A DNA stretch of 32,472 nt from an uncultured Eubacteriales bacterium (GTDB lineage: Bacteria > Bacillota > Clostridia > Oscillospirales > Oscillospiraceae). Under the pieces are notes generated by a model that saw only the letters and a list, made by a program, of their open reading frames with translations, was not told the DNA's origin and made no database searches. The stretch is from assembly GCA_900319275.1 (NCBI GenBank), contig ONNS01000029.1, positions 1 to 32,472 on the forward strand, read 5' to 3'. The position numbers and the translations under genes were made by a program. Shown piece by piece: positions 22,130-26,665 of the stretch (positions within the stretch are counted from its first letter, which is position 1; each line of letters opens with the position of its first letter).

Positions 22130-22158
22130 TTGACTTTTCAATAGAATCTTGTTAGAAT
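22130..22158 (+). promoter_or_regulatory. strong promoter of the structured RNA / pot operon
   Basis: TTGACT (22130-22135), 17 bp, TAGAAT (22153-22158). The predicted start near 22165 is about 390 nt upstream of the potA ATG, so the transcript begins with a very long non-coding region. Confidence 0.78.
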
Positions 22159-22164
22159 AAGTCG

Positions 22165-22410
22165 TCTCAATTGGATTAGAGTTGGGGCGAAGGGGTCACA
22201 CCACTTCGCCCTGTCCAAAGCAAGATGCGACCGCCGAGGGACTTCTTCCCGAGGCCAAGGCCATACGGACAGCCGGGTCGAATGCCGATGGGCCGCGCGT
22301 GCGGCGGCAACTGCGGTTGCCTTATTGATTGAGTTAAAAGCTCAAGTTTTATAAGTTGGTTACTATAAACCAGTGCCGCAAGGCATACAGCTTGTGAAAT
22401 GGTCAATAAG
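22165..22410 (+). ncRNA. highly structured RNA upstream of potA (class unidentified; raiA-type RNA or riboswitch leader possible)
   Basis: Non-coding, dense in helices. GGGCGAAG/CTTCGCCC (22185-22192/22204-22211); TGTCC/GGACA (22212-22216/22267-22271) enclosing small hairpins GGGA/TCCC and GGC-CAAG-GCC; GCCGC-GCGT-GCGGC (22292-22305); GGCAAC-TGCG-GTTGCC (22306-22321). An 8 bp stem CTTATTGA/TCAATAAG (22321-22328/22403-22410) closes three hairpins: TTGAG/CTCAA, TGGTT/AACCA, and TGCC-GCAA-GGCA with a GNRA tetraloop. It lacks the core motifs of RNase P RNA, tmRNA, SRP RNA and the riboswitch classes I can recall. Size and a dedicated promoter and terminator would suit a stand-alone Firmicutes ncRNA such as raiA; the terminator abutting potA would equally suit a riboswitch. 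I cannot decide without a covariance search. Confidence 0.65.
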
Positions 22411-22506
22411 AGTTGGTAAAGATATCTTTGCTTTCAACGCTCTTGAAAAAACCAGTTGGGATTTATTTATTCCCGGGTCTGTCCGGGAAAAATACGTTCT
22501 TTCCAG

Positions 22507-22539
22507 GTGATGTATGCAGTGCGCATGCATCACTTTTTT
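22507..22539 (+). terminator. intrinsic terminator just before the potA ribosome binding site
   Basis: GTGATGTATGC (22507-22517) pairs with GCATGCATCAC (22523-22533; one G-U pair), followed by six T. The potA GAGG site starts 7 nt later (22547). Either it ends a small RNA or it is an attenuator. A second hairpin, TTCCCGG/CCGGGAA, lies upstream near 22470-22488. Confidence 0.88.
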
Positions 22540-22556
22540 CGTTTCCGAGGTGCGGT

Positions 22557-23717
22557 ATGAAAAAGATCATTGAGCTGAAAAACGTGTGCAAATCTTTTGA
22601 CGGCGAGCTGGTGCTCGACCACATCAACCTGGATATTTACGACAACGAATTTCTGACGCTGCTCGGCCCCTCGGGCTGCGGCAAGACCACCACGCTGCGT
22701 CTGATCGGCGGCTTTGAGACCGCGGATGAGGGCGACATCGTCTTCATGGGCGAGACCATCAATCACGTGCCGCCCCATAAGCGCAACGTGAACACCGTCT
22801 TTCAGCGCTATGCCCTGTTCCCGCACCTGAATGTGTTTGAAAATGTGGCTTTCCCGCTGCGCGAGCAGCATGTGCCGAAAGCCGAGATCGTCTCCCGCGT
22901 GGAAGAGATGCTCAAGCTTGTGGCGCTCACGGGCTTTGAAAAGCGCTCGGTCACGAGTCTCTCGGGCGGACAGCAGCAGCGTGTGGCCATCGCCCGCGCA
23001 CTGATCAGCCATCCGAAGGTGCTGCTGCTCGACGAGCCGCTCGCCGCCCTCGATCTGAAGCTGCGCAAGGATATGCAGAAGGAGCTCAAGACCATCCAGA
23101 AGGCCACCGGCATCACCTTCGTGTTCGTCACGCACGATCAGGAGGAAGCCCTCTCGATGTCCGACACCGTCGTCGTCATGTCCAACGGCCGCATTCAGCA
23201 GATCGGCACGCCGATCGATATTTATAACGAGCCGAAGAACGCCTTTGTGGCCGACTTCATCGGCGAGAGCAATATTCTCGACGGCGTCATGCTTGCCGAC
23301 AGAAAGGTTCGCTTCTCGGGCCACACCTTCACCTGCGTGGACAGCGGCTTTGAGGTAAAGGAGCCGGTCGACGTTGTGATCCGGCCTGAGGACGTGGACA
23401 TTGTCCCCGAGGAGCGCGGCATGCTGCGCGGCACCGTCACCTCGGTGACCTTCCTCGGCGTCCATTACGAGATCATTGTGGATATCGGCGGCTTCAAGTG
23501 GATGATCCAGACCACCGATTTTGTCGACGTGGACGAGCACATCGGTCTCTATATTGAGCCAGACGCCATCCACATCATGAAGAAATCCGAATACTCCGGC
23601 ATGTTCGGCGACTACTCCTCCTACTCCGACGAGATGGACGAGATCGGCGAGATCGACAGCGAGGAAATCGTCGAGGCTGAGCTCCGTGCGGAGGCAGAAA
23701 GCGAGAGCGACACATGA
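22557..23717 (+). CDS. potA: spermidine/putrescine ABC transporter ATP-binding protein
   Basis: A 386-residue ATPase of the polyamine importer. Walker A GPSGCGKT (37-44), Q-loop [10 protein letters not shown], signature LSGGQQQ (135-141), Walker B VLLLDEP (155-161), then a C-terminal TOBE region ([15 protein letters not shown]). The last 35 residues form an acidic tail rich in Asp/Glu/Ser, longer than in E. coli PotA. The start at 22557 is supported by GAGG 6 nt upstream and the family N-terminus [13 protein letters not shown]; the open frame extends back through the terminator and is not real coding. Its TGA overlaps the potB ATG. Confidence 0.95.
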
Positions 23718-24595
23718 AAACAAGCCTCTCTGTCAAGGGGCAGCGCTCGCTGATCCAGCGCATCGCGCTCGCGCCCTATTCGGTGTGGGCCGTGCTGTTC
23801 ATCCTGGTGCCGCTGGTTTTTGTGGCGTATTACGCCTTCACCGATCAGAATTACGCCTTCACTACCGACAACATCACGCGCTTCTTCACGGCGACCTCGC
23901 AGGTCGCGGACGGCGACACCGTGCGCGAGGTACACACTTATCTGCTGATCTTTGGCCGCTCGCTGAAGCTGGCTGTGATATCGACCCTGATCTGCCTGCT
24001 GCTGGGTTACCCCTTTGCCTATCTGATCGCAAAGGCCAGCCCCCGCACGCAGAGCCTGCTGATCACTGTGATCATGATCCCGATGTGGATGAACTTCCTG
24101 ATCCGCACCTATGCGTGGATGACGATTCTGCAGGACACCGGCATCTTAAACAGCTTCCTGCGGTTCTTTGGCATCAAGCCGCTGCACATCATCGGCACTG
24201 AGGGGGCTGTTGTCATCGGCATGGTGTACGACTATCTGCCGTACATGATCCTGCCGATCTACTCGGTGATGGCCAAGATGGACGAGCGGCTGATCGAGGC
24301 CGCCTATGACCTCGGCTGCGACGGTGCCGGTGTGCTGCGCCGCGTGATCTGGCCGCTGAGCCTGCCCGGCGTGATCTCCGGCATCGAGATGGTACTGATT
24401 CCCTCGATCTCCACCTTCTATATCTCGCAAAAGCTCGGCAACGGTAAATTCTATCTGATCGGCGACGCGATCGAGAGCCAGTACACCGCCAACAACCTGC
24501 ATTTTGCCGCCGCGATCGCCTTTGTGCTGATGATCGTGCTGCTGATCGGCATGGCGATCCTGCAGCGCGGCGCCAACCGGCGCGCCGCCGCGTAA
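23714..24595 (+). CDS. potB: spermidine/putrescine ABC transporter permease
   Basis: A 293-residue six-TM permease starting in the ATGA overlap with potA. After the first TM it has the PotB-type periplasmic stretch and [27 protein letters not shown], then [18 protein letters not shown], a signature of polyamine PotB/PotH permeases. The EAA loop is [22 protein letters not shown]. It pairs with PotC to form the membrane channel. Confidence 0.94.
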
Positions 24596-24608
24596 GGGAG
24601 GGGCTCAC

Positions 24609-25445
24609 ATGAAAATGAAACCGATCGCCAAGGTATATACCGCGCTGCTGATGCTCTTTCTGTTCGCGCCGATCGCGATTCTGATCGTCTTTTCGTTCAA
24701 CAGTGCGAAAAGTCTGTCGGTGTTCTCGGGCTTTTCGCTGCACTGGTATCAGGAGCTGCTGCGCGACAGCGAGACGCTCGATGCTGTCCGCAACACGCTG
24801 GTGCTGGCCGTCAGCGCCAGTGTGATCTCGACGCTGATGGGCACGGCCGCCGCCGTGGGCATCTACCGCCTGCGCAGCCGCTACCTGCGCGCCGCACTGG
24901 ACACCGTCACCAACATTCCGATGATCAACCCCGATATCATCACCGGTATCTCATTGATGCTGATGTTTGTGTTTGTCGGCAGATTCTTCGGCGCCGCGAC
25001 CAGCCTGAACTTCGGCACGATGCTGATTTCGCACATCACCTTCTGCCTGCCCTATGTCATCCTGCAGGTGCTGCCCAAGCTGCAGCAGATGGATCACGCC
25101 CTGCCCGAGGCCGCGATGGATCTCGGCTGCACCCCGCTGAAGGCCTTCTTCAAGGTCGAGGTGCCCGAGATCATGCCCGGCATCGTCACCGGGTTGATCA
25201 TGGCCTTCACGCTCTCGCTCGATGACTTCGTCATCAGCTACTTCACCAGCGGCAACGGCTTCCAGACCCTGCCGATCCGCATTTACAACATGACAAAAAA
25301 GACCGTGACGCCGAAGATGTACGCTCTGGCGACGCTGATCTTCTTTGTAATACTGGCCATGCTGCTCATCACCAATCTGATGGACGCCAACACGGCCACC
25401 GACGTGCAGGACGCCAAGCGCCGTCGTAATACTGGTACCCAATAA
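24609..25445 (+). CDS. potC: spermidine/putrescine ABC transporter permease
   Basis: A 278-residue six-TM permease. Landmarks: FSFNSAKSLSVFSGFSLHWY near the N-terminus, IPMINPDIITGISL, EAA loop LPEAAMDLGCTPLKAFFKVEVP and FTLSLDDFVISYFTSG, all typical of PotC/PotI. GGGAGGGG precedes the ATG, 13 nt after potB. About 100 bp, without a clear terminator, separates it from potD. Confidence 0.94.
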   Translation: MKMKPIAKVYTALLMLFLFAPIAILIVFSFNSAKSLSVFSGFSLHWYQELLRDSETLDAVRNTLVLAVSASVISTLMGTAAAVGIYRLRSRYLRAALDTVTNIPMINPDIITGISLMLMFVFVGRFFGAATSLNFGTMLISHITFCLPYVILQVLPKLQQMDHALPEAAMDLGCTPLKAFFKVEVPEIMPGIVTGLIMAFTLSLDDFVISYFTSGNGFQTLPIRIYNMTKKTVTPKMYALATLIFFVILAMLLITNLMDANTATDVQDAKRRRNTGTQ

Positions 25446-25546
25446 AAACAAGACATTCTTTGCCTTTTTTCTATCGGTTTTCAGTATATGTCCGGCAACG
25501 GCGCCCACTGAAATCCCCGCTTACTATTATTACAGGAGGAAAACCC

Positions 25547-26665
25547 ATGAAAAAGAAACTGCTCGCCCTGCTTGCGGCAGCTGCGATGCTGCTCTCCCTC
25601 GCCGTGCTGACCGGCTGCGGCTCGTCAAACGAGACGCTGACGCTCAACGTCTACAACTGGGGCGAATATATTTCCGACGGCTCCGAAGGCTCGCTCGACA
25701 CCGTGAAAGCCTTCGAGGAATACTACCAGAAGGAATTTGGCAAGAAGGTCCGCGTCAATTACACCACCTACGCCAGCAACGAGGACATGTATGCCAAGCT
25801 CTCGAGCGGCGCTGTCAGCTACGACGTCATTATCCCCTCGGACTATATGATCGCCCGTATGCGCGACGAAAACATGCTGCTGCCGCTGAACTTTGACAAC
25901 ATCCCCAACTACCAGTATATCAACGAGAGCTTCCGCAATCTCTACTATGACCCCGACAACCAGTACACGGTGCCCTACACCTATGGCATCGTGGGCGTGA
26001 TCTATAACGCCGCCGCTGTCGATGAAGCGGACGTCGGCGACTGGGATCTGATGTGGAACAGCAAGTACGCCGGACAGATCCTGCAGTTCAACAACTCCCG
26101 CGACGCTTTCGGCACGGCCATGTACAAGCTCGACCTCGACGTGAATACGACCGACCATGCCGTCTGGGATCAGGCGCTCGCCGAGCTGCAGACCCAGAAG
26201 CCCCTGGTGCAGAGCTACGTGATGGACGAGATCTACAACATGATGGAGAGCGGTGAGGCCGCTGTCGGCGCCTACTACGCGGGCGACTACTTCACGATGC
26301 TCGACGCCGAGGCCGATGGCGTGGATCTGTGCTTCTACTACCCCGAGCGCACCAACTACTATGTCGATGCGATGTGCATCCCGAACTGCTGCCAGCAGAA
26401 GGATCTGGCCGAGTGCTTCATCAACTTCATGCTCTCCGCCGAGCCCGCGATCGCCAATGCTGAGTACACCTACTACGCCTCCCCGAACTCCCTCGTCTAC
26501 GAGGACGCGGGCTATCAGGAGGATCTCGGCGAGGAGACCATGGCCATCCTCTATCCGGGCATCGAAAACTTCTCCGAGCTCTACAACACCTACGCCTACC
26601 AGAATCTCGACAACGAGACGCTGAGCTATATCACCACGCTGTGGGAGACGCTGAAAATCGGCTGA
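25547..26665 (+). CDS. potD: spermidine/putrescine-binding lipoprotein
   Basis: A 372-residue polyamine-binding protein. Signal peptide with lipobox LTGC (Cys near residue 24) anchors it to the membrane. Mature landmarks are NVYNWGEYI, NYTTYASNEDMYAKL, YDVIIPSDYMIARM and VPYTYGIVGVIYN, closely following E. coli PotD. GGAGG lies just upstream of the ATG at 25547; the 29 upstream in-frame codons are not supported. It completes potABCD and is followed by a terminator. Confidence 0.95.
   Translation: MKKKLLALLAAAAMLLSLAVLTGCGSSNETLTLNVYNWGEYISDGSEGSLDTVKAFEEYYQKEFGKKVRVNYTTYASNEDMYAKLSSGAVSYDVIIPSDYMIARMRDENMLLPLNFDNIPNYQYINESFRNLYYDPDNQYTVPYTYGIVGVIYNAAAVDEADVGDWDLMWNSKYAGQILQFNNSRDAFGTAMYKLDLDVNTTDHAVWDQALAELQTQKPLVQSYVMDEIYNMMESGEAAVGAYYAGDYFTMLDAEADGVDLCFYYPERTNYYVDAMCIPNCCQQKDLAECFINFMLSAEPAIANAEYTYYASPNSLVYEDAGYQEDLGEETMAILYPGIENFSELYNTYAYQNLDNETLSYITTLWETLKIG

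Follow-up and report, generated by a model that had tools for sequence, protein, structure and literature searches.

Does the structured RNA in front of the polyamine uptake operon of an uncultured Eubacteriales bacterium (family Oscillospiraceae) govern that operon, or is it a stand-alone RNA that happens to precede it? The question is raised by contig ONNS01000029.1 (assembly GCA_900319275.1), whose positions 1 to 32,472 make up the stretch analyzed here, called the window, and in which a structured stretch of about 375 nucleotides (nt) lies between a promoter-like sequence and potA, the first gene of potABCD; all window features given below lie on the forward strand. From our analysis we conclude with high confidence that the RNA is real and conserved and attenuates polyamine genes in cis, and with moderate confidence that it is probably a polyamine riboswitch. 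The reading that we favor, to which we give a probability of about 0.6 on the basis of sequence comparison, is that the 5' leader of potABCD is a transcription-attenuation element most likely sensing intracellular polyamine, probably spermidine.

Polyamine genes downstream of the RNA

Homologues were collected by RNA sequence alone, which gave 162 loci; 11 of them had less than 700 nt downstream, and the remaining 151 could be assessed for signatures of polyamine genes in the 1.5 kb that follow on the same strand. Such a signature follows the RNA in 147 of the 151 loci, namely speD in 50, potA in 38, an ornithine/lysine/arginine (Orn/Lys/Arg) decarboxylase gene in 36, and a gene for a carboxy(nor)spermidine dehydrogenase (CASDH)-like protein in 23, where the classes come from protein signature strings, which are not proof for the individual locus, with representatives confirmed by Pfam and NCBIfam. 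Five pairs of loci are identical over 600 nt (L003/L105, L009/L139, L027/L071, L036/L084, and L038/L039), and after removal of these repeats the linkage amounts to 142 of 146 (speD 48, potA 36, decarboxylase 36, dehydrogenase-like 22, none 4). An earlier count, made with other signatures and another length rule, gave a hit in 150 of the 162 loci, with 7 too short and 5 without any. Among ten further representatives scanned, nine match the expected kind of protein, some of them below curated cut-offs; the representative of L145, a fragment of 65 amino acids, has no match in the Pfam/NCBIfam scan. With the carboxynorspermidine synthase model, the CASDH-like dehydrogenases score 381 to 422 bits, about half of its cut-off of 800, and the Lactococcus PotA reaches 343.2 bits, just below the potA cut-off of 355.6.

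The same linkage is seen in a sample of 398 genomes of the phylum, where all 25 convincing hits precede a polyamine gene. Twenty-four of them were classed (speD 10, CASDH-like 7, decarboxylase 6, and potA 1, which is the window), while the 25th, L173, is the same site as L005 and has a decarboxylase gene downstream. On a quick tree of 71 RNAs, the type of linked gene changes nine times. The common denominator of the four linked gene types is spermidine, or else its uptake or a precursor step on the way to it.

Secondary structure and its conservation

The conserved element consists of the helices P2 to P10 and spans about 216 nt (22228 to 22443), plus the terminator. It was delineated in an alignment (A1) of 71 homologues: 148 of the 162 loci passed a search for both ends, 7 were dropped for length, the rest were dereplicated to 110 candidates, and the 71 were chosen from these by hand, leaving out long or degenerate rows. 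Nine helices, P2 to P10, were proposed inside A1. Over their 58 pairs, 92.5% of the cells are paired, compared with 87.1% after column shuffling and 36 to 44% when the pairing is slid by 1 to 3 columns, and 267 cells are changed on both sides, compared with 86.7 ± 9.5 in shuffles (0 of 500 as high) and 39 to 114 in the slid controls. Covariation is good in P3, P4, and P6, and the outer closing pair of P2 occurs as U-A (30), G-C (22), and C-G (11). P5, P7, and P10 are supported mainly by conservation, because they are nearly invariant or changed on one side only. RNAalifold recovered 38 pairs from A1, P7 not being among them, and few helices from a loosely trimmed alignment; P7 was drawn from single sequences, and its support comes mostly from near-invariance, with changes on one side only, in addition to compensated forms recognized by eye in L211 and L186. 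In the window itself, the fold of 22165 to 22545 is predicted at -149.9 kcal/mol (z = -6.1), with 0 of 100 shuffles equally stable.

Conservation of this kind also bears on ribosome-dependent attenuation through a leader peptide. An open reading frame (ORF) of at least 10 codons preceded by a Shine-Dalgarno sequence is present in 36 of 155 leaders; the other 119 lack one, while the RNA helices are conserved, and we deem this mechanism highly improbable compared with a leader that acts through its own structure.

Along the window, the variable 5' hairpin P1 (22171 to 22218; UUGGA...UCCAA, with the inner strands GGGCGAAG and CUUCGCCC) was recognized by eye and lies outside A1; 5' hairpins resembling it are visible by eye in other loci. 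The segment from 22228 to 22280 comprises P2 (CGACC/GGUCG), P3 (22233 to 22255), and the near-invariant AAGGCCAUACGGACAGCC (22257 to 22274), is supported by covariation in P2 and P3, and makes up most of the SpF59 match described below. It is followed by the conserved single strand AAUGCCGAU (22281 to 22289), by an extra hairpin GCCGC/GCGGC (22292 to 22305), which is an insert in some alignment rows only, and by the P4 hairpin GGCAAC/GUUGCC (22306 to 22321), which covaries in A1. P5 (22322 to 22409), formed by UUAUUGAU (22322 to 22329) and GUCAAUAA (22402 to 22409), is 98.4% paired, nearly invariant, and encloses P6 to P9. The P6 hairpin UGAG/CUCA (22330 to 22344) is 97.4% paired, with changes on both sides in three of its four pairs, and P7 (22347 to 22399), in which UUUUAUAAGUU (22347 to 22357) pairs with AGCUUGUGAAA (22389 to 22399), is 96.5% paired, with one-sided changes only. 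On top of P7 stand P8 (GGUU/AACC, 22358 to 22371) and P9 (GUGCC/GGCAU, 22373 to 22386, with the loop GCAA at 22378 to 22381), the latter being poorly aligned and 60 to 80% paired. The P10 hairpin (22410 to 22442) forms, together with ACUUGUGAAA-NGGUCAAUAAGAGU, a 3' module (22390 to 22443) that persists in loci devoid of the 5' domain.

Three loci illustrate the loss of the 5' domain. In L185, L186, and L188, all with speD downstream, the 5' domain is missing or unrecognizable by eye, and the 3' module is retained in the form of ACUUGUGAA, a stretch resembling CAAUAAGAG, and P10. Inspection by eye shows a promoter-like sequence directly upstream in L185 and L188; L185 also possesses a terminator. 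In L211, a distant decarboxylase-linked member scoring 36.7 bits with the model of the module (R2, see below), the module is kept and P7 is compensated, as judged by eye. The 3' module is thus probably the core of the switch, because it is kept where the 5' domain is gone.

Complementarity between the terminator and the RNA

Of 155 loci (which include close relatives), 90 have a strong terminator no more than 230 nt downstream of P10, compared with 0.0 in shuffled sequences. The 5' arm of the terminator can pair with the P9/P7 3' strand (GCAUACAGCUUG), made up of the 3' side of P9 and ACUUGUG of P7. The two partners covary from locus to locus: among 108 terminator loci, dereplication and a limit on arm length left 80, in which the duplex of each RNA with its own arm has -12.96 kcal/mol, whereas exchanging the arms among loci gives -11.02 ± 0.23 kcal/mol (z = -8.5, 0 of 10,000). 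In the same test, eight other segments range from z = -2.6 to +3.1, and the terminator 3' arm gives z = -1.9. A compensatory change is also seen, since UUAC(A/G) occurs in the arm of 10 of 14 loci with ACUUGUAAA compared with 2 of 94 with ACUUGUGAA, and in the Lactococcus locus L137 both sides are altered, ACGCUUG facing CAGGUGU (by eye). In the window, the putative antiterminator would join GCAUAC (22383 to 22388) and GCUUG (22390 to 22394), both within 22383 to 22394, with GUAUGC (22512 to 22517) and CAGGU (22504 to 22508), respectively, both within the terminator 5' arm (22504 to 22517). We therein see a leader that probably works as a terminator/antiterminator switch.

The locus in the window

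The promoter-like sequence (22130 to 22158) reads TTGACT-17-TAGAAT with an extended -10 TG and predicts a start near 22165. A promoter matching at least 10 of 12 positions is present in 109 of the 155 homologous loci, close relatives included, compared with 3.8 expected. The intrinsic terminator (22505 to 22539) consists of a 13-pair hairpin (22505 to 22535) and a T tract to 22539; four terminator-like sites were found compared with 3.1 ± 2.0 expected, the potA-proximal one being the longest. From the end of the T tract, 7 nt lead to GAGGTG (22547), the ribosome binding site of potA, whose ATG is at 22557. The potA gene (22557 to 23717) encodes a polyamine ATP-binding cassette (ABC) transporter ATPase (TIGR01187, 366.9 bits with a cut-off of 355.6; NF043075, 555.5 with a cut-off of 550). 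It is followed by potB (23714 to 24595), potC (24609 to 25445), and potD (25460 to 26665), which together occupy 23714 to 26665; the NCBIfam models that fit them best are those of spermidine/putrescine permeases and PotD, every score being under the curated cut-off, and the potABCD operon is complete in the window. Upstream of the RNA lies rsmI, encoding a 16S rRNA 2'-O-methyltransferase (TIGR00096, above cut-off).

The original prediction, made from the letters of the DNA, had described this arrangement as a near-consensus promoter, closely packed helices in which an 8-bp stem closes off three hairpins, a terminator whose end is 7 nt away from the potA ribosome binding site, and a complete potABCD operon. 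A promoter-like site, with an extended TG, and a terminator of 13 pairs are indeed present, promoters also being well represented among homologues; the NCBIfam matches bear out the operon; the helices are reflected in the fold z score and in the retention of P2 to P10 in other genomes; and the closing stem corresponds to P5, which encloses P6, P8, and P9, the last with the GCAA loop. The covarying helices for which the prediction had proposed to look are present in the 71-row alignment.

Rfam match and the pneumococcal RNA

RF02440 (SpF59_sRNA, also named ldcC RNA) matches the window at 22228 to 22288 with 61.3 bits, compared with a gathering score of 37.2, over model positions 1 to 54; no other Rfam family reaches E = 1 between 21900 and 22700. 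The earlier statement that no known RNA class fits is therefore corrected for this one part and stands for the remainder, and no match to a housekeeping RNA was found. RF02440 models 54 nt (P2, P3, and the core) under the name of a small RNA (sRNA), whereas the element described here has about 216 nt plus a terminator and precedes polyamine genes across Bacillota. Conservation among homologues reaches far past Rfam's 54 nt, and the existing SpF59 "sRNA" model covers a fragment of the leader.

By its name, SpF59 is pneumococcal F59, alias srn235 and SN20, and the likeness of the leader to F59/srn235/SN20/Spd_sr49 rests on the Rfam family name, the locus position, and the listed length. F59/srn235/SN20 occupies the intergenic region of SP0915 and SP0916, and its mutants (srn235/SN20) have a severely reduced lung fitness of 0.05 in transposon sequencing (Tn-seq) (PMC3395615); srn235/F59/Spd_sr49 is given as a putative sRNA or noncoding RNA (ncRNA) of 327 nt (PMC12323649); srf-13 is an "ncRNA of unknown function" at D39V 826260 to 826587 (PMC6212727); and SP0916, once called lysine decarboxylase, is the arginine decarboxylase gene speA (PMC7990898). 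From position and length we infer that srf-13 is the same RNA as F59, and F59/srn235 would be the terminated form of a polyamine-gene leader.

These pneumococcal descriptions, including the lung phenotype, together with an own promoter and terminator and a single copy per genome, are what speaks for a stand-alone, trans-acting sRNA (F59/srn235/SN20/srf-13) that stands before polyamine genes by chance, a reading that the original prediction had placed on a par with a polyamine-sensing leader. We consider it unlikely, because it leaves unexplained the tracking of four unrelated polyamine gene types through nine type changes on the tree and the complementarity of the terminator arm to the RNA itself; moreover, the Tn-seq phenotype could equally stem from altered function of the adjacent downstream gene, SP0916 (speA). 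The leader reading of the original prediction gains support at the level of cis action from the 147 of 151 linkages and the covarying terminator arm, and judging from these sequence data the RNA is very probably a cis-acting leader of polyamine genes.

Distribution

RF02440 has matches in 33 members of a 150-genome set from the family and in 18 of the 398 genomes from the phylum. Two further models were used, R1 for the whole RNA and R2 for the 3' module, the alignment of the module (A2) holding 45 of 57 prepared modules. In the phylum sample, R1 finds 24 and R2 finds 26; the convincing hits of the two number 25, window included, and 7 of them are missed by RF02440. L212 (R2, E = 9.9e-4) was set aside as a chance match, having no polyamine signature downstream and overlapping an ORF on the opposite strand. 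Among the matches listed (at least 117), the named contigs are nearly all from Bacillota, namely Bacilli, Clostridia, Negativicutes, and Erysipelotrichia; the carriers within Bacilli belong to Bacillaceae, Caryophanaceae, Paenibacillaceae, and Streptococcaceae (Lactococcus), and single records are labelled Spirochaetota and Synergistota. Two loci, L145 and L107, stand in records labelled Synergistaceae and Spirochaetes, which points to lateral transfer or misbinning.

In the window's genome (97.7% complete), no match to S-adenosylmethionine (AdoMet, SAM) decarboxylase (speD) was found, and the Orn/Lys/Arg decarboxylase family gave two weak matches of 79 and 22.8 bits; therefore, uptake may be the sole polyamine system to control there, which would account for the single copy of the RNA in this genome and makes uptake a plausible sole target of the leader. 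This suggests that the organism depends on imported polyamine.

Points weighing against a polyamine switch

A number of results weigh against the favored reading and are gathered here. The promoter-like site is the sole one between 21000 and 23500, where shuffled sequences give 0.8 ± 0.8, so that a single site is within chance expectation and the window promoter draws its support from the homologues. In A1, 21 pairs show changes on both sides, above every shuffle, and the slid controls give 13 to 22, one of them reaching 22. The 5' strand of P7 is lost in L043 (1399 to 1562), while the same-family loci L038, L039, and L041, with the same type of downstream gene, keep it. As regards the duplex test, the window locus is not among the 108 terminator loci; one control segment reaches z = -2.6 (56 of 10,000) and another +3.1; and the signal shrinks when parts of the strand are taken singly, with z = -2.0 (270 of 10,000) for the variable 18 nt and z = -3.3 (7 of 10,000) for ACUUGUGAA. 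No terminator was found by first criteria in 24 of 132 loci.

The energetics point the same way. Before the terminator 3' arm is made, the P7/aptamer fold is computed to be more stable than the antiterminator, the median difference being 6.35 kcal/mol (n = 80); the gap is within 2 kcal/mol in only 19 of the 80 loci, and the antiterminator emerges from free folding in 13. The window's gap amounts to 6.8 kcal/mol at 22517 (-133.9 versus -127.1) and to 10.0 kcal/mol at full length (-149.9 versus -139.9). Since the energies favor P7, the RNA may be "off" by default when no ligand is bound, and the switch may run in either direction.

Copy number and gene context add to these points. One copy is present in every genome matched at E ≤ 0.001 with RF02440, R1, or R2, the big scans having scored 6 to 35 candidates per genome only; in the window's genome no second copy rises above chance, the next match having E = 1.22 and 12.6 bits. 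Riboswitches are seldom confined to one copy per genome, as stand-alone RNAs typically are. Furthermore, four loci (L020, L089, L123, and L065) precede other genes. An association with pot genes throughout, which the original prediction had proposed to check, does not hold, as other polyamine gene types follow the RNA too, and unrelated genes follow it in these four loci only. Taken together with the lack of a housekeeping-RNA match and the presence of covarying helices, the refuting conditions that the prediction had set do not overturn it. L020, L089, and L123 share the core GGCUACACGGACGGCC and extra stems, with a lipoprotein-like gene downstream, which in L020 (1845 to 3053) encodes an M28 peptidase, an arrangement that is possibly a new regulon member or a rearrangement. 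In L065 (2163 to 2400), the RNA seems cut off after P9, has no R2 match, and is followed by an amidohydrolase gene; it looks like a decayed copy.

Proposed mechanism and the nature of the signal

The RNA shows two features typical of riboswitches, namely a conserved, structured candidate aptamer upstream of functionally related genes and putative mutually exclusive structures, the terminator and its covarying complementary strand, though the energies favor P7. When polyamine is plentiful, the P2 to P10 fold would be stabilized, ACUUGUG would be locked in P7, the terminator would form, and the operon would be off; when polyamine is scarce, the ACUUGUG-containing strand would pair with the terminator arm and RNA polymerase would read through. 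The 3' module (P7 end, P5 3' strand, and P10) would be the minimal switch and the 5' domain (P2 to P6) an added part, missing in some lineages. We lean towards this off direction on the grounds of feedback logic; read-through of the ligand-free RNA does not follow from the secondary-structure energies.

It seems likely that a polyamine is the signal. The gene linkage and the antiterminator would fit more than one kind of sensor; a strong predicted default fold that something must alter, and an RNA size that leaves room for a protein site, would also suit a cis attenuator whose signal is read by a protein, or which responds to another pathway metabolite (decarboxylated SAM, arginine, putrescine, or agmatine) or to Mg2+. 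We find these variants possible but rather doubtful: long near-invariant sequences across Bacillota classes look, in our judgement, more like a ligand pocket than a short protein site, and the four gene types have in common spermidine or a step towards it. Direct binding of a polyamine by the RNA is therefore our preferred version of the leader, by a modest degree of belief.

Relation to known RNAs

Although polyamines are abundant RNA-bound cations, the only spermidine riboswitch class that we found in the literature searched is a rare SAM-I variant, shown by Salvail et al. (2023) to be an off-switch (PMC10853860). Like the window leader, it lies before polyamine genes (speD, speE, speB, and ldcC in that case) and combines a terminator with an antiterminator; unlike it, the leader of the window type also precedes potA and CASDH-like genes. 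SAM-riboswitch families gave no match at E up to 1 between 21900 and 22700, nor at gathering thresholds across the window, and identity with the published spermidine riboswitch is ruled out, the SAM-I aptamer fold not being matched. The SAM-I variant is reportedly also smaller than the leader described here.

Other candidate structured RNAs tied to polyamine genes are set apart from the window RNA by their descriptions, as far as the main text of Brewer et al. (2021) (PMC8632094) gives them: the odc1 motif has a pseudoknot near its 5' terminus and precedes a presumed ornithine decarboxylase gene, and the potE motif lies some 200 nt from its gene. By term search of main text, the polyamine-linked motifs of that ncRNA survey are of other kinds, and none are present in a second survey (PMC11109978). 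Our literature search found no description of the RNA as a polyamine leader; supplements and most subscription papers were outside its scope, so that an earlier description is possible.

The raiA RNA and other large stand-alone ncRNAs of Firmicutes are likewise large, single-copy, and conserved, traits that the window RNA shares. In contrast to raiA RNA, the window RNA is tied to polyamine genes and has a terminator arm that covaries with the RNA. As a candidate, raiA RNA was rejected, since the RNA matches no Rfam family except RF02440 and the raiA model is presumably part of the Rfam library.

Implications

Taken at the strength that we can give it, which is slightly in favor, the leader would represent a second, structurally independent, and far more widespread class of polyamine riboswitch, among the largest known, in which a minimal module at the 3' end does the switching and a 5' domain of about 120 nt is detachable. 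It would control the key polyamine operon of its host, be it speD, SpeA/LdcC or carboxyspermidine synthesis, or pot uptake, and the pneumococcal virulence "sRNA" F59/srf-13 would be its terminated form. To the authors of the SAM-I variant it seems certain that further classes await discovery (PMC10853860). With the leader present in 25 of 398 sampled genomes of the phylum, a polyamine feedback device would be common to many gut bacteria, to bacilli and lactococci, and presumably also to pneumococci. If this is true, an unexplained pneumococcal virulence sRNA becomes a probable cis-regulator of speA, and a long-suspected class becomes directly testable with defined mutants.
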